From an uncultured Thermomicrobiales bacterium (lineage in GTDB: Bacteria > Chloroflexota > Chloroflexia > Thermomicrobiales > UBA6265), in NCBI GenBank assembly GCA_902806405.1, contig CADCWL010000072.1, positions 1-33,849 of the forward strand: 33,849 bases of DNA, read 5' to 3'. Below the pieces are notes generated by a model. The model was not told the DNA's origin. It ran no database searches and was given only the letters and a program-made list of their open reading frames with translations. The position numbers were made by a program, and so were the translations under genes. Within the stretch, counting starts at the first letter, position 1. Every line of letters begins with the position of its first letter. This document shows positions 1-33,020 of the stretch, one piece after another.

Positions 1-961
1 ACGGCGCCGGGTCCCGTCCCCGCAGCGTCAGGTTGAGCGCAAGGGCGAGCACGGCGACGGCCACTGGGAGGGCCGTCAGGTGGGGATGGAGATCGCCGAG
101 TAGAAAGCTGAAGAACGGGAACTCGTTGATCGTCTCAAGGCCGCTCGCGCAATCGTTGTCCACGCGCTGGCCGTCGCACACGATCCGGCTCGCCCGCCAG
201 CCGACCCCGACACGCTTGTCCCACCAATCCGCGGCCAGGGTCGCGGCCGGTGTCTGCAGGAGGCGGACGGCGGCGTACAGGTTGCCGACGCCGACGAGCA
301 GGACCGCCGCCAGGAGGCCGGAGGCGACGGCCAGCCTCCGCGAGAGCCAGGGACGGGCGGCGTTGAATCCGACGCCGGCCGCTGCAGTCGCCGCGGCGGA
401 GAAAGTGGTTGCCAGGGCCAGATTGAAGCCCGTCGTCGCCGCCACCCCCGCCAGCCGCGCCACGGCACCGTGCATCAAGTAGCCGAGGTAGTAGTAGTTG
501 ATCGGCTCCCCGGCGAACCACGGGTCGGGTGGGGGCATCGTCGTCGCCCGCGCGCTCGCCGCGAGGAAGGCCGCGTCCATCGGCTTCTCGGTGCCCAGGA
601 TGTCCGGCGTGAAGCCGCGCAACCAGAGGTACGCGGCAAACGCCGAGAGCGAGATGGCCTCGGCCAGGAGCAGCGCACGAAGCCATCGCCGGTCCACCGC
701 GCCGCGCCGCGTCACGATCGTCCACGCGACCGCGCCGGTCACGCCGACCGTCAGCCACAGCCCGAGCGTGGAGTAGGGGAGGAGGCCCAGGCTCGACAGC
801 AGCCAGCTCGGGTACACGACGCCGAGCAGCGCCAGCGGCCTGGCCACCAGGGCACCCCGGTCGGGGAGGCGGTCGCAGAGCAGCCGCACCAATGGCGCCA
901 CCGCCCAGGTTGCTAGCATCAGCACCAGGTACCAGCGGGTCGCCGCCTCGAACCAAGTCAC
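1..961 (-). CDS. YYY-family (DUF2298) polytopic membrane protein, C-terminus beyond window
   Basis: This gene runs off the left edge, so about the first 320 codons are visible. The GTG at 961 is chosen because it lies 25 bases after the preceding gene's stop and no in-frame start exists between them. The translation has several hydrophobic segments, a GTEKPMD stretch, a DPWF-A-GEPINYYYLGY motif at about residues 144-160, and later NEFPFFSFLLGDLHPH. The triple tyrosine followed by LG and the E-FPFF...DLH-H block are hallmarks of the Chlor_Arch_YYY/DUF2298 family, large integral membrane proteins of unknown activity with GT-C glycosyltransferase-like features. The upstream neighbour on the same strand carries the same domain, so the two form a probable operon of related membrane proteins, perhaps in lipid-linked sugar transfer. 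The family call is firm; the function is inference. Confidence 0.85.
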   Translation of the reverse strand, partial: MTWFEAATRWYLVLMLATWAVAPLVRLLCDRLPDRGALVARPLALLGVVYPSWLLSSLGLLPYSTLGLWLTVGVTGAVAWTIVTRRGAVDRRWLRALLLAEAISLSAFAAYLWLRGFTPDILGTEKPMDAAFLAASARATTMPPPDPWFAGEPINYYYLGYLMHGAVARLAGVAATTGFNLALATTFSAAATAAAGVGFNAARPWLSRRLAVASGLLAAVLLVGVGNLYAAVRLLQTPAATLAADWWDKRVGVGWRASRIVCDGQRVDNDCASGLETINEFPFFSFLLGDLHPHLTALPVAVAVLALALNLTLRGRDPAP

Positions 962-986
962 GATCGTCGCCGTCGAGGCACGCCGC

Positions 987-3900
987 TCACCGGCCGACGA
1001 TCGGGAGGACGCGATAGACGGTCGTGTCCCCCTCCGAGAACGCGACCTCTAGGTCCGTCCCCTCCATCCCCTCGAGCGCCACGATCCCGGCCGACGTGGG
1101 CGCCGCGGCGCAGCGATCGCGGGCATCGATTCGGATCCCGTCCCGCTCCAGTTGGCCGACGACCACGTACTCAACGTTGTACCGATCCAGGATGGAGCGT
1201 TTCTCCGCTACATCTGGCGTGGCGTACAGGCGCCGGACATCCTCGACCCGACCCGGCAGCACGTCCGGGCTCCGTTGCTGCCGCTCGTGCCGCTCCCAAC
1301 CGATGATCGTCGGCAGCCCCGTCCCGATCGAGATCCGCGAGCCGTTGCACCGGTAGGTGCCGATGCTCGCCTCGGCGACCACCGGCGACCCCTCCACCTC
1401 GCGGTTGAACCAGTCGATCGCCGCCCGATCTCCCGCGAACCCGAGCTCGTCCCGCACTCCGTTCCCGACCAGCGGCAACCGCCCGTACCCCATCCACTCG
1501 AGCGCGTCCAGCGTCCCCGACCCCAGATCGGGAGCAAACCGCTGGTCCAGACGGGGCAGCGTCGCCGTCAGCGGGTAGAGGAGCGACGCGGCGATCGAGA
1601 CACCGGTGACGGCCAATCCCGCCCGGCTCCAGTGACGCCGTGCCGCCTCCGAGGCAATCTCGCGTCGCCCCGTCCGCCTCTCGGATAGGGAGGCGGATGC
1701 CGCCCGCCCTGCCGGCACGATGCCGAGAGCGCTCGGGCCTGCCCAACCCGAACCCGCACCGGGCGAGGCCGGCGCCCGTCCTTCGGCCAGCATCGTCGTT
1801 GCCAGCGCCGCCCCGGCGAGCGCGACGAGCACCCAGATCTGGTTGTAGAACTTAAAGACCGTGTTCATCCGGTACCAATCGGTGCCGATCAGGTCATCAG
1901 CGAGGACCACCAGTTCCGTCCCGGCCCCGACGAATGCGCCGGCAGCGACCATCAGCCCCGCGAAGCGCGTCCCGTCTCCGTGCCCTCGAAGCCAAACCGC
2001 GATCGCGGCCGCGCCGACCGTGAGGAAAGCGGCCAGCACGAGCCGATCCGAGGCGATCGCGAGCCCGACCCCGAGGGCGGCGACCACGACGCCGCCCCGA
2101 AGCAGGGCGTGGGACCGCTCGGCGTCGCCGTCGGCCCCCTCTGAACGTCCCAACACGGCAACACCGAAGAGGACGGCGGCGAGCCCCAAGCTTCCCGCGA
2201 CCAGTCCTGCTTCCAGGCGAGCGTCCGAATCGCTCGCTGCAACGCCGGAGAGAAGGAGCGCGACGACCAGCAGGATCCCGCTCGCGACGGCGGCCGGGAC
2301 GAGCGGCTCGCCGAGCAGACCGACTCGGCCTCGTCGCGGCAGGAGGGCGACGACCAGTCCGAACGAGGCCACCGCGAAAAGTCCACCCAGGTGGCTCGCC
2401 GCGGCGACCGGCGGCGTCGGTGCGCGGACCCACTCGAGGGTGCCGAAGAGGGCGACGTAATGGGCGTAGAACGGCAGGAAAAGGAGGTAGGAGGCGGCCC
2501 CAAGACAAGCGCCGAGTCCCAGCACCGCCGCCATCCGGCGCGGCCAGGTCGGCAGCGTGCGCGCGCTCGTCAGGAGCGCAACGACCGCGAGCGCCACGTA
2601 GACCGGAACGTCCCACGCGTTTGTCGCGCTCAACGTCCCCAGGACGAGCGCGAGCAGGACGAGCCGGCTGGCGAGGACGATGCGAGCCTCCCGCGCCCTT
2701 CCGGCACCCACTGCCGAAGCCAGCACCCCGCTATCGCTTGCCAACGCGTAGCAGAGCGCGATCGCGAGGACCGTGATCGGCAAGGCCACGACGTGCGCAT
2801 GGAGGTCCGCGTAGAGGCCGGTGAAGAAGGGAAACTCGGTGATGATCGTCCCCCCGATGCCCCGGCTGGGGCCCCAGGTCCAGACGGAGAAGGGGTCGCC
2901 GACCGCAGGACCCCCCTCCAGCAGCAGCCGAAGCGTTCCCAGGTTGCCGACGCCGACCAGCATCAGCGCTCCGAGCGCCCCGCCCGCGAGGGCATACCCG
3001 CGCCCCTGACCCGGCCGCCGCCCGAGAGCGGCCGCGACGCTGAAGCCGGCGCTTGCCAGCAGCGCGATCACCGTCGGTTGGGCCAGGTTGAACCCGATCT
3101 CCGTCGGGATACCGGTCAGTTTGAAGCAGAAGGCGACGAGGTAGAGACCGTAGTAGTAGTAGTTAAGGACACCGTCGGCGTACCACGGATCGTACGGAGG
3201 GAAGTGGGCGCTGCGCAGCGTGGCGTTGAGGTGGGCGAACTCCATCGGTTTCTCGCCGCCCCAGATGGGGTGCCAGCCGTCCGGGTTCAAATATCGAAAA
3301 AGGAGGAAGATCGCAAAGACGACCCAGAAGGTGACCTCGGCGCCGACGGCCGCCCGCCGCTGGTGGCGACGAACGGCCCACGGCCCACCGTGGCGGCGCA
3401 TCCGGCGGTACAGCGTCCAGCCTGCTCCTCCGACCACGGCGAGGGTGGCGGCGGCCCACGCCGCCCGGAACGAGATCAACCGCGTGCTCGAGCCGAGCCA
3501 GACCAGGTAGCCGCTCGTGACCAGGGCGACGAGCCGTGCGAGTCCCCAGCCGGCGTCGGCGAATCGGCCGAATGCCAGCGACGCCAGCGGCCAACCCACG
3601 ATCTGAAGCACTGCGAGTAGGATGACCCAGGCCGCGAGCGCGCCGACGGACGAGCCCGTGACGGTCTCGCTCCAGCGCGCGTCAGCCACCACCGCCCGCT
3701 CCCCGACGGGCTCGTCCAAAAGAAGCGAACGTTCGGGCGCGTACCGCGTGTCCGACCACGGACGCGCGACAGCCCAAGACATGAGCCGCTCGTACGTTTC
3801 CCGCGGGACGAGCCCGTCCTTGCGAAAGATCAGCACCCGCGGGTGGTCGTAGTTGATGAACGATTCGTCCGCGTCGTGGTCGACGAACCGGAGCGGCCCG

Positions 3901-28669: not shown

Positions 28670-30610
28670 ATGGCGTCCCCGACGATCCTCAGCGTAACGG
28701 GCCTCGCGAAAGCGTACGGCTCCGAGTCGATCTTTGCCGACGTCTCTTTCCAGGTGGCGGAGCGGGAGCACGTCGCGCTCGTTGGCGTCAACGGCGCCGG
28801 TAAATCGACCCTTCTCCACATCATCGCCAGGACCGAACACGCCAACACCGGGACCGTCGTTCGCGCCGCGGGCGCCCGCGTCACCTACCTGCCCCAGGAG
28901 GCCCGCTTCTCCAGCGAGCGGAGCGTCCGCGACGAGGCGCGGCAGGCATTCCAGGCGACGCTCGAGGCGGCGGACCGGATGCGGGAGATCGAGCGGCGGA
29001 TGGGCGACGTCGGCAGCGACGAGCTCGATTCCTTGCTCGCGGAGTACGACCGGCTTCAGCAGCGCTTCGAGTCGCATGGCGGGTACGATCTGGAGCACCG
29101 CACGGACGAGGTGCTGATGGGGCTCGGCTTCGAGGAGGGCCAGTTCGACGAGCCGGTCAACCACCTCAGCGGAGGTCAGAAGACCCGCGTGGCGCTGGCC
29201 AAGGCGCTCCTGGCCGACCCGGACCTGCTGCTCCTCGACGAGCCAACGAACCACCTCGACCTCGAGATGCTCGAGTGGCTGGAAGGGTTCCTCCGGACCT
29301 GGTCCGGTGCCTGCCTCGTCGTCTCCCACGACCGCTACTTCCTCGACCGGGTCACTTCCCGCACGCTCGACCTCTCATTCGGGCGGTTGGAGGACTATCC
29401 CGCCCCCTACTCCCGCTACCTGGTTTTGCGCGAGGAACGCCTGGCCCGGCGGCGCCAGGAGTACGACGAGCAGCAGGCCTTCATCGCCCGCACCGAAGAG
29501 TTCATCCGCAAGTACAAGGCAGGCCAGCGATCCAAGGAGGCACGCGGCCGCCAAACCCGTCTCGAGCGGTTGGAGCGGCTCGATCGACCGCAGGAGCACG
29601 AGGCGCTGTCGCTGCGGATCAATCCCGCCGTGCGGAGCGGGAGGGAGGTTCTCACCCTCTCGCCACTCCGGATCGGCTACACCACGCAGGAGGGTTCGTA
29701 CGAGCTGCTGCGGACGCCCGAGCTCCAGATCGAACGGGGCGAGCGCGTCGGCCTGATCGGCCCGAACGGAGCCGGCAAGACGACGCTGCTGCGGACGCTC
29801 ACCGGCGAGATCCCTCAGCTGAAGGGCCGCTTCTCCTTCGGCGTGAACGTCAAGGTCGGCTACTACGCTCAGGGCCACGAGAGTTTGCCGATGGCGGGAA
29901 CCGCGCTCTCGGTGGTCCTCGCGGCACAGCCGATGGGGGAAGAAGCGGCGCGGACTTACCTCGGCCGGTTCCTGTTCAGCAACGACGACGTCTTCAAGCG
30001 CGTCGAGTCTCTTTCCGGCGGCGAGCGCTCTCGGCTGGCGCTCTCCGTTTTGCTCCTCCAGCAGGCCAACCTGCTGATCCTCGACGAGCCGACGAACCAC
30101 CTCGACATCCAGACACGGGAGACGCTGGAGGGGATGCTGACCGGCTTCGACGGCACGATCCTCTTCGTCTCCCACGACCGGTTCTTCATCGATCGGATGG
30201 CGACCCGGATCTGGGCCGTCGAAGACGGGACCGTCTCGTCGTTCCTCGGCAACTACACGGACTACCAGCGCAAGCTTGGCCGCCGATCGGATGCGGTCAC
30301 AAAGGAAGCAAACGCGACCGGGCCCACCGTGAAAGACACCGAAGCGCAGCTCCTCGTTCGACGACGGTCGGCAGACGTCTCCGCTCAGGTCGTGAAGTCT
30401 CTGGCGCAGGTAGAGCGGGACGTAGCTCGGCTCGAAGGGAAGCTCAACGAGCTGAGCGACGCGCTGACCGTCGCCGGAATCGATTCTGACAGCGCCGCCG
30501 TCGCCCGCCTCGGCGCGGAGTACGAGCGGACGCAAACGGAGCTGGACGCGGCCTACGCGCTGTGGGAATCGTTGACGGCACAGGCCGAACCGGCCGCCTC
30601 CGCCGTCTGA
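28670..30610 (+). CDS. ABC-F family ribosomal ATPase
   Basis: The 646-residue protein has two ABC ATPase domains and no membrane segment, as in ABC-F factors that act on the ribosomal E site. Domain 1 has Walker A GVNGAGKS (39-46), signature LSGGQ (166-170) and DEPTNHLD (190-197). The charged linker at about 240-315 is the P-site tRNA interaction motif. Domain 2 has GPNGAGKT (364-371), LSGGE (448-452) and another DEPTNHLD. A C-terminal coiled coil of about 70 residues (VERDVARLEGKLNELSDAL) resembles that of Uup/YfmR-type members. The ATG at 28670 has AAGGA at 28654-28658. Whether it gives antibiotic protection or is housekeeping is not decidable. Confidence 0.93.
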   Translation: MASPTILSVTGLAKAYGSESIFADVSFQVAEREHVALVGVNGAGKSTLLHIIARTEHANTGTVVRAAGARVTYLPQEARFSSERSVRDEARQAFQATLEAADRMREIERRMGDVGSDELDSLLAEYDRLQQRFESHGGYDLEHRTDEVLMGLGFEEGQFDEPVNHLSGGQKTRVALAKALLADPDLLLLDEPTNHLDLEMLEWLEGFLRTWSGACLVVSHDRYFLDRVTSRTLDLSFGRLEDYPAPYSRYLVLREERLARRRQEYDEQQAFIARTEEFIRKYKAGQRSKEARGRQTRLERLERLDRPQEHEALSLRINPAVRSGREVLTLSPLRIGYTTQEGSYELLRTPELQIERGERVGLIGPNGAGKTTLLRTLTGEIPQLKGRFSFGVNVKVGYYAQGHESLPMAGTALSVVLAAQPMGEEAARTYLGRFLFSNDDVFKRVESLSGGERSRLALSVLLLQQANLLILDEPTNHLDIQTRETLEGMLTGFDGTILFVSHDRFFIDRMATRIWAVEDGTVSSFLGNYTDYQRKLGRRSDAVTKEANATGPTVKDTEAQLLVRRRSADVSAQVVKSLAQVERDVARLEGKLNELSDALTVAGIDSDSAAVARLGAEYERTQTELDAAYALWESLTAQAEPAASAV

Positions 30611-30622
30611 CGGGTCCGGGGA

Positions 30623-31291
30623 GTGACGCGCCCGTTCCTGCTGGGCCTGACCGGGAACATCGCCTGCGGCAAGAGCACCGTGGCCGGGATGCTGGTGCAG
30701 CACGGCGCAACCGCGATCGACGCGGACCGGGTGTACCACGACTTGATCGTCCCCGGCGCGCCGCTCTGGCACGAGATCCGGCGTCGCTTCGGGGACGGCG
30801 TCGTCGCGGGCGACGGGACGATCGACCGTCCCTCGCTCGCGCGCACGGTCTTCGGCGATGCGGCGGCGCTCTCCGACCTCGATCGCTTGACCCACGCGCC
30901 AATCCTGGCAGAGCTTCGTCGCCGGGTGGCGGCGACCGAAGCGCAGCTGGTCGTCGTCGATGCCGTGAAGCTGTTCGAGAGCGGCTATGCGGCGGAGTGC
31001 GACGCCGTCTGGGTCGTCACGTGCCGGGAGGACCGTGAGGTCGAGCGACTCATGGCGCGCAGCAACCTGACTCGACACGCCGCGGAGCGGCGAGTCGCCG
31101 CCCAGCCTCCGCTCGGGGTCAAGATCGAGCACGCCGACGCAGTCATCGGGAACGACGGTACCCTCGACGAGACACGAGCCCAGGTGGAGCGCGCACTGGA
31201 AAGGCTCAGGCGGGATCGACAATTTGACAGCACGAGCGAACCGGAGTCCAATGGCGCCCGTTATCGCCCAGGTCCGGCAAAGGACAACTAG
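30623..31291 (+). CDS. coaE: Dephospho-CoA kinase
   Basis: The 222-residue P-loop kinase phosphorylates dephospho-CoA in the last step of CoA synthesis. The start is GTG 30623, 12 bases after the ABC-F stop, with CCGGGGA before it. The P-loop GLTGNIACGKST spans 8-19. DADRVYHDLIVPG, the RPSLARTVFGD motif, THAPI and the VVDAVKLFESGY segment follow in family order. The C-terminal 20 residues are polar and extend past the fold. The stop precedes the selenoprotein candidate by a single base, so the two are probably read as one operon. Confidence 0.95.
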   Translation: MTRPFLLGLTGNIACGKSTVAGMLVQHGATAIDADRVYHDLIVPGAPLWHEIRRRFGDGVVAGDGTIDRPSLARTVFGDAAALSDLDRLTHAPILAELRRRVAATEAQLVVVDAVKLFESGYAAECDAVWVVTCREDREVERLMARSNLTRHAAERRVAAQPPLGVKIEHADAVIGNDGTLDETRAQVERALERLRRDRQFDSTSEPESNGARYRPGPAKDN

Positions 31292-31292
31292 C

Positions 31293-31919
31293 GTGCGCGA
31301 CGATTACGTCTTCGACGTCTTCTACGACTACGGCTGACCCTTCGTCCACAGCGCAGCGGTCTGGCTGCGCGACGTGCAACAGCACCTCGGAGAACGGCTC
31401 CGCGTCAACTGGCGCTTCTTTCCACTCGAACAGGTGAACTCGGCCGAAGGCCCGGAGTGGAAGCTCTGGGAGCAGCCCGACAGCCATCGGAGCCGGGGGC
31501 GTCCGGCCTTTCAGGCGGCGATTGCCGCCAGACGCCAGGGCGACGCTGCATTTGAGCGGTTCCACTTCGCGCTCCTCCGCGCCCGCCACGAGGAGAACAA
31601 GGACCACGGCCGACGCAAGGTCTTGCTCGAGGTCGCGGAACAGGTCGGGCTCGATCGGGAACGCTTCGAGCGCGATCTGGACGATCGCTCTCTCTTGCCG
31701 CAGATCGGCGAGGATTACGAGCAGGGGCGGAACGTCGTCGGTGCCTTCGGCACCCCAACGTTCGTCTTCCCGAACGGCGAGGCGGCCTATCTCAAGCTGC
31801 TCCCCCCACCCCCGCCGAGCGAGACCATGAGTGTCTTCGAGCAGTTCGTGAGTCTGGGACGCGAGCGCCCTTACGTGCTGGAGTTGAAGCGCCCCCAGCG
31901 GCCGGACCCGGCTACGTAG
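31293..31919 (+). CDS. DsbA/FrnE-like thioredoxin-fold protein, candidate selenoprotein (in-frame UGA at codon 15)
   Basis: GTG 31293 follows AAAGGA (31279-31284), one base after the coaE stop. The first strand reads VFDVFYDYG, then TGA at 31335-31337, then [10 protein letters not shown]; the frame continues to TAG at 31919 (208 residues). DsbA-family proteins carry the first active-site cysteine exactly here (D-x-x-CP-x-x). The rest is a normal DsbA/FrnE-like protein: [12 protein letters not shown], a helical insertion, [27 protein letters not shown], and the cis-proline loop FGTPTF (Pro155). The second active-site position is valine and no cysteine codon exists anywhere, so Sec15 would be the only redox centre. 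A SECIS-like hairpin lies just downstream of the TGA. ATG 31251 is an alternative in-frame start. A nonsense mutation remains possible. Confidence 0.8.
31347..31376 (+). promoter_or_regulatory. Bacterial SECIS-like element
   Basis: GCGCAGC (31351-31357) pairs perfectly with GCTGCGC (31364-31370), enclosing the loop GGTCTG. CAC (31347-31349) can pair with GTG (31374-31376) below an asymmetric internal loop. The loop starts 20 bases after the TGA, within the range known for bacterial SECIS elements, and begins with GG. The loop matches the GGUCUG core seen in the E. coli fdhF SECIS. The TGA is followed by C, a weak termination context. Confidence 0.75.
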
Positions 31920-31931
31920 TGGACAATGCCA

Positions 31932-31967
31932 GAGGCGAGGACGGACGTGGCAGTCCGTCCTCGCCTC
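31932..31967 (+). terminator. Perfect 15-bp hairpin after the selenoprotein candidate
   Basis: The arm GAGGCGAGGACGGAC (31932-31946) is matched exactly by GTCCGTCCTCGCCTC (31953-31967), with the loop GTGGCA. It begins 12 bases after the TAG of the DsbA-like gene and lacks a T-run. Its position between one operon's end and a new -10 box suggests a U-less terminator. Confidence 0.65.
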
Positions 31968-31984
31968 CGGCGTCAATTCTGCCG

Positions 31985-31990
31985 TACACT
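31985..31990 (+). promoter_or_regulatory. -10 element TACACT; leaderless first mutY
   Basis: TACACT ends seven bases before ATG 31998, which has no Shine-Dalgarno sequence upstream. Transcription would begin at or beside the ATG, as for uvrC. No good -35 hexamer is seen; the -35 region coincides with the right arm of the terminator hairpin. Confidence 0.45.
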
Positions 31991-31997
31991 TGTTCGT

Positions 31998-33020
31998 ATG
32001 ACGTCTGAGGACTCCCTGGCAGCGCAGACTGCGCCGGGCAACGAGGATCTGGACTCGCCCAGATTCGCGCGCGTGCAGGGCAAGCTTCTGCATTGGTTCG
32101 GCGGGAATCGGCGCGACCTCCCCTGGCGCCGCTCCCGCGATCCCTACCAGATCCTCGTCTCCGAGGTGATGCTGCAGCAGACTCAGGTCGATCGTGTCCT
32201 GCCGTACTACCGGGCGTTCCTTGATCGGTTCCCCACGGCGGCGGCGTTGGCGGCCGCGCCGACGGCGGACGTGATCAGAACCTGGTCCGGCCTTGGCTAC
32301 AATCGGCGCGCGGTTAACCTGCAACGGACGGCCCGGTACGTGGTCGACGAGGAAGACGGCGTTTTCCCGCGAGATGTCGACGCGCTACGCAGGCTACCCG
32401 GCATCGGGCCCTACACCGCCGGCGCGATCGCCTGCTTCGCCTTCGAGCAAGATGTTGCGTTCATCGACACCAACATGCGCCGGGTGCTCCACCGGCTCTT
32501 TGTCGGCGTCGACGTGCCCGCCCCCCAAGTGCCCGACCGGACGGTGATCGCCATCGCGGAGCGCGCTCTTCCCCCTGGCCTCGGCTGGGACTGGAATCAG
32601 GGCTTGATAGAGTTCGGGGCGCTGCACTGCACCTCCCGTAAACCCGCCTGCGTGGTCTGCCCGCTGCAACCCGAGTGCCGCGCGTTTCCCGCTATTCAGG
32701 GCGTACTCGCGGCGGCCCGGGCCACGCCTCGCCCGCGTCGGGAGCCGGCGTTCGCAGGCTCGAACCGTTTCTATCGCGGGCGCATCATCGCCGCCCTGCG
32801 TGATCTCCCGGGCGGAGTCCAAAGCAGCGGCATCGATCTTCGCTCGCTTGGGCCACTGGTCCGTCCCGATTTTCGCGACGAGCATGTGCCGTGGCTCTCG
32901 TCGGTCATCGACGGCCTCGCCAGGGATGGACTGGCCCGCATTGCCGAGGAATGCCCCCCTTACGATGCCGGAACGGGCGAAGGCGGCGGCAGCGCTCGTG
33001 TGAAGGTTCGGCTCCCCTAG
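31998..33020 (+). CDS. mutY: A/G-specific adenine glycosylase (MutY), first of a tandem pair
   Basis: The 340-residue HhH-GPD glycosylase removes adenine mispaired with 8-oxoguanine. It shows SEVMLQQTQV with catalytic Glu56, GLGYNRRA with Tyr101, the hairpin LPGIGPYTAGAI, catalytic Asp157 in IDTNMRRV, and the [4Fe-4S] ligands Cys211, 218, 221 and 227 with the usual 6-2-5 spacing. In place of the C-terminal NUDIX-like domain there is a short SNRFYRGRIIAALRDLP...WLSSVIDGLARDG segment, like that of short actinobacterial MutY proteins. ATG 31998 is chosen for its -10 box; the frame is open to 31926 through the terminator hairpin. A second homologue starts two bases after its stop. Confidence 0.92.
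   Translation: MTSEDSLAAQTAPGNEDLDSPRFARVQGKLLHWFGGNRRDLPWRRSRDPYQILVSEVMLQQTQVDRVLPYYRAFLDRFPTAAALAAAPTADVIRTWSGLGYNRRAVNLQRTARYVVDEEDGVFPRDVDALRRLPGIGPYTAGAIACFAFEQDVAFIDTNMRRVLHRLFVGVDVPAPQVPDRTVIAIAERALPPGLGWDWNQGLIEFGALHCTSRKPACVVCPLQPECRAFPAIQGVLAAARATPRPRREPAFAGSNRFYRGRIIAALRDLPGGVQSSGIDLRSLGPLVRPDFRDEHVPWLSSVIDGLARDGLARIAEECPPYDAGTGEGGGSARVKVRLP

Follow-up and report, generated by a model that had tools for sequence, protein, structure and literature searches.

The window analysed here (33,849 nt of DNA from an uncultured Thermomicrobiales bacterium) contains a gene of the DsbA fold in which the UGA at 31335-31337 is almost certainly read as selenocysteine (Sec), with decoding by SelB and tRNA-Sec that would be guided by a hairpin just downstream. 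Comparison with homologous sequences gives strong support to the view that this is a real selenoprotein gene, and the initial annotation, which had read it as such, was right in substance. The product is probably a cytoplasmic monoselenol reductase that would draw on external thiols.

Reading frame, fold and active site

The frame runs through 209 codons from GTG at 31293-31295 to TAG at 31917-31919, with a single in-frame TGA at codon 15 and no Cys codons. The initial annotation had placed this TGA inside an otherwise continuous DsbA-fold frame, exactly at the active-site position, and it lies there to the base; likewise, the absence of Cys codons holds over the complete 209-codon frame, and the AAAGGA reported ahead of the GTG is present (Table 1). 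It had also been predicted that a standard gene caller would start downstream, for example at GTG 31374, and lose the active site. The mechanical ORF does start there, at codon 28 (open from 31374 to 31919), and for that reason lacks the active site: this short version is without the first 27 residues, which include an invariant D-x-x-[C/U]-P site.

When the TGA is translated as an amino acid, the protein scores 54.6 bits on PF01323 (DSBA), above the cut-off of 25.6, which places it within the DsbA fold. Its AlphaFold model has a mean pLDDT of 95.2, and residue 15 is located directly before a helix that spans residues 16-35. In an alignment of 42 proteins the residues D12, C/U15, P16, Q47, W59, F152 and G153 are invariant, as are P155, T156, E197 and K199-R200-P201. 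Pro155 belongs to an FGTPT loop whose cis geometry we assume from the fold in general. Position 18 corresponds to the second Cys of classical DsbA and is occupied by V (37/42), A (3/42) or T (2/42), so the C/U-x-x-C pair of classical DsbA is missing. No model of the June 2026 NCBIfam release reached its cut-off for the window protein or for three homologues (L065, L036, L044), and because of this TGA-bearing copies are probably annotated as fragments that lack the active site.

Table 1. Features of the selenoprotein gene and its surroundings in the window
Feature	Position	Strand	Basis
Putative selenoprotein gene, DsbA-fold, 208 residues, Sec15 the sole C/U residue	31293..31919	+	PF01323 E 1.5e-14, AlphaFold model, codon counts
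TGA codon, almost certainly read as selenocysteine (residue 15, motif D-Y-G-U-P-F-V)	31335..31337	+	Homologue codons
AAAGGA, probable ribosome-binding site, 8 nt before GTG 31293	31279..31284	+	Sequence only
Predicted bacterial SECIS hairpin: 7-bp stem 31351-31357 / 31364-31370, loop GGUCUG 31358-31363	31351..31370	+	
Pro155 codon, presumed cis-Pro position of the thioredoxin fold (FGTPT)	31755..31757	+	P in 42/42 aligned proteins
ABC-F type ATP-binding protein, conserved further upstream neighbour	28670..30610	+	
coaE (dephospho-CoA kinase), conserved neighbour; stop TAG 31289-31291, one base from the selenoprotein GTG	30623..31291	+	
HhH-GPD DNA glycosylase, MutY-like (which we take to be MutY), conserved downstream neighbour	31926..33020	+	

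Codon 15 in homologues and the SECIS hairpin

A scan of genomes of named species yielded 13 loci, and the closest named relatives for the selenoprotein gene are MAGs of Thermomicrobiales and Sphaerobacteraceae. Profile searches gave 80 matches at E 1e-20 or better within the same phylum, spread over 78 of 400 genomes, and 39 matches at E 1e-30 or better within the same order, spread over 36 of 61 genomes. The active-site codon was read in those matches that were taken as loci and in six further places besides genome G073; the other phylum and order matches have no in-frame stop listed. Loci L022-L101 minus L034, which was excluded from the codon count for a gap at the active site, amount to 79 loci with 80 copies, 64 of them distinct over about 330 bases. 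Nine of the 12 closest named-species loci have a gene that agrees base for base, over 330 bases, with the one at other loci and was counted once, while near-copies such as L031 and L033 each count among the 64.

Codon 15 is TGA in 22 of these 64 distinct genes, TGC in 34 and TGT in 8, and it is never anything else. The proposed search of homologues for Cys at this position thus returned Cys in 42 of the 64, with the other 22 carrying TGA. Every one of the 22 TGA genes has exactly one in-frame TGA within the matched frame. The active-site residue is the only Cys or Sec of the matched frame in 56 of the 64 genes, and a single Cys is found in 36 of the 42 Cys homologues; judged by these sequences, the family is a monothiol/monoselenol one. 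The initial annotation had described Sec15 as the sole redox residue, which stands, and had called this an unusual single-selenol design. The single redox residue is not peculiar to the Sec form: since 36 of the 42 Cys homologues have only one Cys, the design is a trait of the family and not of selenium. Genome G448 has two copies of the family (C51:12929-13528 and C5:3316-3897); one of them carries an in-frame TGA, and the other has no stop in frame.

The hairpin downstream of the UGA had been described as having a 7-bp stem that begins 13 nt after the TGA and a loop GGUCUG that begins 20 nt after it, and it was recovered as such: the arms GCGCAGC and GCTGCGC enclose GGTCTG, with 13 nt from the TGA to the stem and 20 nt to the loop. 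Published bSECIS criteria comprise a loop of 3-9 nt, a stem of 4-16 bp, a G in the first two loop positions, a spacing of 16-37 nt from the UGA and a minimum free energy of at most -7.5 kcal/mol (PMC13188914). The 22-nt window hairpin, for which such scoring had been proposed, falls within all of these limits (loop 6, stem 7, GG, spacing 20), with a predicted energy of -15.2 kcal/mol. The folding energy of a 51-nt stretch is unexceptional (z -1.35; equalled or surpassed in stability by 23 of 200 shuffles), and a search of 31200-31600 against Rfam at E up to 10 gave no SECIS match. Because stability is unremarkable and a family match is absent, the case for the hairpin rests on comparison between genes.

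This comparison separates the two forms of the gene. On average 6.2 of the 7 stem positions are paired in TGA genes (n=15) versus 3.2 in Cys genes (n=27), a difference that was reached by none of 20,000 permutations in a test that ignores kinship; in the larger set the means are 6.0 (22 TGA genes) and 3.4 (42 Cys genes). Covariation was examined in an alignment of 15 TGA genes, 14 of them distinct, in which 89.8% of stem cells are paired. Eleven cells are changed on both sides of a pair and the covariation score is 0.323, values that were each matched by none of 500 shuffles, and shifting the stem partners by one to three columns abolishes the covariation signal. In the same test the number of pairs with a change on both sides (99/500 shuffles as high) and the number of further pair types (101/500) are not unusual. 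The two outer stem pairs are each unpaired in 5 of the 14 sequences. Compensation is clearest in L057/L058, where three successive pairs differ from the window on both sides and still pair, and one TGA gene (L094) retains just 4 of the 7 pairs. As far as the alignments indicate, almost every TGA gene has retained the hairpin, with compensatory changes, whereas the Cys genes have largely lost it. The common hairpin would serve as a ready reporter of UGA decoding for this bacterial group.

The most divergent TGA gene, L065 (196-759, genome G073), has TGA at the same codon in the context DPI-U-PWAW. It is without the common hairpin (3 of 7 pairs) and the loop of its own predicted fold does not begin with G, so that it might possess a SECIS element of a different shape.

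Selenocysteine machinery, alternative readings of the UGA and Sec/Cys exchange

The window genome, a 4.6-Mb draft in 266 contigs that is 90.9% complete, contains a tRNA-Sec (anticodon tca), selA (E 2.6e-122; TIGR00474 487 bits), two selB genes above the cut-off and a selD that carries its own in-frame TGA. All of selA, selB, selC and selD, whose absence would have spoken against a selenoprotein, are accordingly present. The two full-length selB copies, L011 (G000:C183:1116-2222) and L012 (C237:20350-21438), are 55% identical, and might reflect either a duplication or a mixed bin; the other 13 TGA genomes in which a selB was detected have one copy each. In the window genome's selD (L019, G000:C168:19646-20581) the in-frame TGA is followed by a predicted hairpin, and a selD with one in-frame TGA is present in 18 of the 19 genomes where selD was found.

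Among the 15 TGA genomes examined, selA is found in all (partial in G403), as is a selD with one in-frame TGA, and selB in 14, the search of G403 having found none. A clear tRNA-Sec was detected in 12 of the 15; the best tRNA-Sec scores in the other three (G400, G402, G403) are 41 to 50 bits, a range in which Ser and Leu tRNAs of the window genome also score. Incompleteness explains the missing tRNA-Sec of G402 poorly, because its gene (L026) agrees at every one of 330 bases with the copy in G424, a genome listed as 93% complete. A sixteenth TGA genome, G073, has selA and selD. The 27 compared genomes without TGA in the gene comprise 23 in which codon 15 was read as Cys and four (G191, G199, G167, G017) assigned by the absence of an in-frame stop only. 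Full-length selA was found in 23 of these 27, the exceptions being G214, G095, G202 and G098. Sec machinery thus looks necessary for the TGA form, yet does not force it. In genome G253, from the same family as the window genome, the gene (L036) is of the Cys form and selD has no TGA, while selA, selB and tRNA-Sec are kept; this genome may encode other selenoproteins or may be in the course of losing the Sec trait.

These data also bear on other ways of reading the UGA. It is very improbable that the codon is a true stop, in a gene that is decaying or has been split and yields a shorter protein from GTG 31374. The ORF 31374-31919 is open and draft assemblies do contain broken genes, but alignments of 13 and of 42 proteins show that the frame is conserved before as well as after the TGA, the short version would drop 27 residues together with the invariant site, and in each of the 22 TGA genes among the 64, codon 15 is the one place in the matched frame where TGA occurs. 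The decay that would have undermined the selenoprotein reading was thus looked for and not found. A mis-called TGC or TGT, as could arise in a draft assembly of 266 contigs, has a still smaller chance of being the cause: the same TGA recurs in other assemblies from several families, the named ones belonging to Thermomicrobiota and Chloroflexota, and it comes with a hairpin that Cys genes largely lack. UGA has been reassigned to Trp or Gly in other bacterial lineages, and a changed code or a suppressor might be envisaged here too. This we consider scarcely credible, since all 42 non-TGA homologues have Cys at the site and never Trp or Gly, the window genome has a tRNA-Sec (anticodon tca) as well as Sec machinery, and six Cys homologues end in TGA (L024, L025, L027, L028, L029, L032).

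With UGA read as Sec, the distribution of the two forms was mapped on a maximum-likelihood tree of 42 proteins, in which the active-site residue was masked. At least 7 changes between Sec and Cys are required on this tree, 4 of them forced by well-supported branches; good support is found for 17 of the 39 inner branches, but not for the deep ones. On this tree the family has exchanged Sec and Cys repeatedly, with 4 to 7 swaps as the minimum. Its 22 Sec and 42 Cys versions form a natural series for asking what selenium gains over sulfur, and a clean one, because most members have a single redox residue and no second thiol that could confuse the comparison.

Relatives, proposed activity and gene context

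The nearest solved relative of the window protein is the single-Cys DR_2335 of Deinococcus radiodurans (PDB 7DK9, native; 7DKA, C24S), not FrnE. The match is evident by structure (TM about 0.83, best E 6.4e-13) and by profile (E 2.7e-33), and the two proteins share the DsbA fold, their size, an aligned active-site Cys position and a C-terminal R-P end. They differ in that DR_2335 has Cys where the window protein would have Sec, and they are 28-30% identical in structural alignments. Together with the single Cys or Sec in 56 of 64 genes, these matches assign the window protein to the DR_2335 type. Rv2466c comes next in the structural ranking, with FrnE and GST-kappa more distant. FrnE (DR_0659) and Rv2466c, a mycothiol-dependent nitroreductase whose active site is CPWC, resemble the window protein in their DsbA fold with an active-site CP motif, but their profile matches (E 6.3e-10 for FrnE; 1.4e-13 to 2.1e-13 for Rv2466c) are weaker than that of DR_2335. 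The label "DsbA/FrnE-like" that had been given to the gene is therefore correct as to the DsbA fold (PF01323), while its FrnE part was too loose.

A 2022 review attributes one conserved Cys to proteins of the DR_2335 type and was aware of no experiments on what they do or how they are expressed (PMC8945050). FrnE is characterized in that review by a CP(W/F)C active site, often by a C-terminal Cys pair, and by a predicted cytoplasmic location (PMC8945050). The window protein lacks the CP(W/F)C motif.

DsbA-fold selenoproteins are already known as a class. UxxC-containing DsbA-like selenoproteins (form 1) were reported from the Sargasso Sea (PMC1088965, PMC13188914); they share with the window protein the fold and Sec at the first active-site position, and differ in having a second Cys, where the window protein has U-x-x-V and no other Cys. 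A 2026 catalogue lists in its Table 1 a "DsbA-like protein form 2" selenoprotein with the motif DxxUP (MDP6049977.1), which it credits to Peng et al. 2016 (PMC13188914). As described there, form 2 has in common with the window protein PF01323, one Sec and D-x-x-U-P in place of UxxC. Because DxxUP agrees with D12, U15 and P16, and D12 and P16 are present in 42/42 aligned proteins, the window family may be this catalogued form 2 under a poor name, as far as a comparison by motif and description goes. The same catalogue also names form 2 a crotonase/enoyl-CoA hydratase (PMC13188914), and the form 2 entry of a 2022 catalogue (KAA1296466.1) has the crotonase domain PRK06023 (PMC9312934); neither this naming nor the domain, as given in the two catalogues, fits the window gene. 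The word stems "Chloroflex-" and "Thermomicrob-" are absent from the main text of the 2026 review (PMC13188914), and a literature search found no published description of the family for Thermomicrobiales. A more tentative proposal, which we hold to be doubtful, is that of an undescribed family of one-selenol DsbA-fold reductases distinct from form 2, with Sec and Cys exchanged often and the remainder alike, that perhaps serves an unknown low-molecular-weight-thiol system in Chloroflexota/Thermomicrobiota.

Two other selenoprotein families were compared. Among NCBIfam models, NF041057, the Rcas_1661 family thioredoxin-like (seleno)lipoprotein and a selenoprotein family by name, is alone in touching the window protein; at 24.2 bits against a cut-off of 190 the window protein is not a member. 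The selenoprotein TsoY (NF047643) is listed with the motif UxxV (PMC13188914, Table 1), a motif that the window protein has as well, and NF047643 was not among the matches when the protein was scanned against NCBIfam at E up to 1.

With Sec at position 15, the gene would encode an oxidoreductase that has the DsbA fold and belongs to the single-Cys DR_2335 type, and the selenium of Sec15 would be its one redox atom. From the model and the alignment, the FGTPT loop is taken as the cis-Pro loop beside this residue. The selenolate might attack a disulfide, a small-thiol mixed disulfide or another electrophile, giving a selenenyl-sulfide or a Se-adduct. Because the protein has no resolving Cys, release would fall to an external thiol, either a low-molecular-weight thiol or thioredoxin. 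Such an activity would be that of a monothiol, glutaredoxin-like reductase and not that of a disulfide-forming DsbA. A cytoplasmic location is suggested, since the first strand stands at the very start of the frame. We favour this reductase mechanism, with modest confidence.

If Sec is inserted, the protein could also be a transferase or isomerase of the GST-kappa/HCCA-isomerase branch, in which the selenolate acts as a nucleophile or binds a thiol cofactor. The fold matches to GST-kappa (1r4w, TM 0.65) and HCCA isomerase (2imd, TM 0.64), the lack of a resolving Cys, and the invariant Q47, W59, E197 and K199-R200-P201 (42/42), which could line a small-molecule pocket, are in keeping with such an enzyme. 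In sequence and fold, however, the window protein is nearer to DR_2335 and Rv2466c than to either of these enzymes, thiol/selenol redox chemistry accords with a site that is strictly Cys or Sec and with the FGTPT loop, and HCCA isomerase has Ser at the corresponding place. We regard the transferase or isomerase as a serious though less likely rival and prefer the monoselenol reductase.

The order ABC-F, coaE, selenoprotein gene, mutY recurs in relatives. Across the other 42 loci searched (L022-L064 besides the window's own L035), many of which have short flanks, coaE was found at 14 and mutY at 9. Neighbours at other loci differ, and include phosphofructokinase, RNase III, a LUD-domain protein and DUF1015, among others. 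The coaE, mutY and ABC-F neighbours do not point to a pathway. In genome G193 (L041), selD (349-1302, minus strand) adjoins a TGA-bearing DsbA-like gene (1501-2091, plus strand) on the opposite strand.
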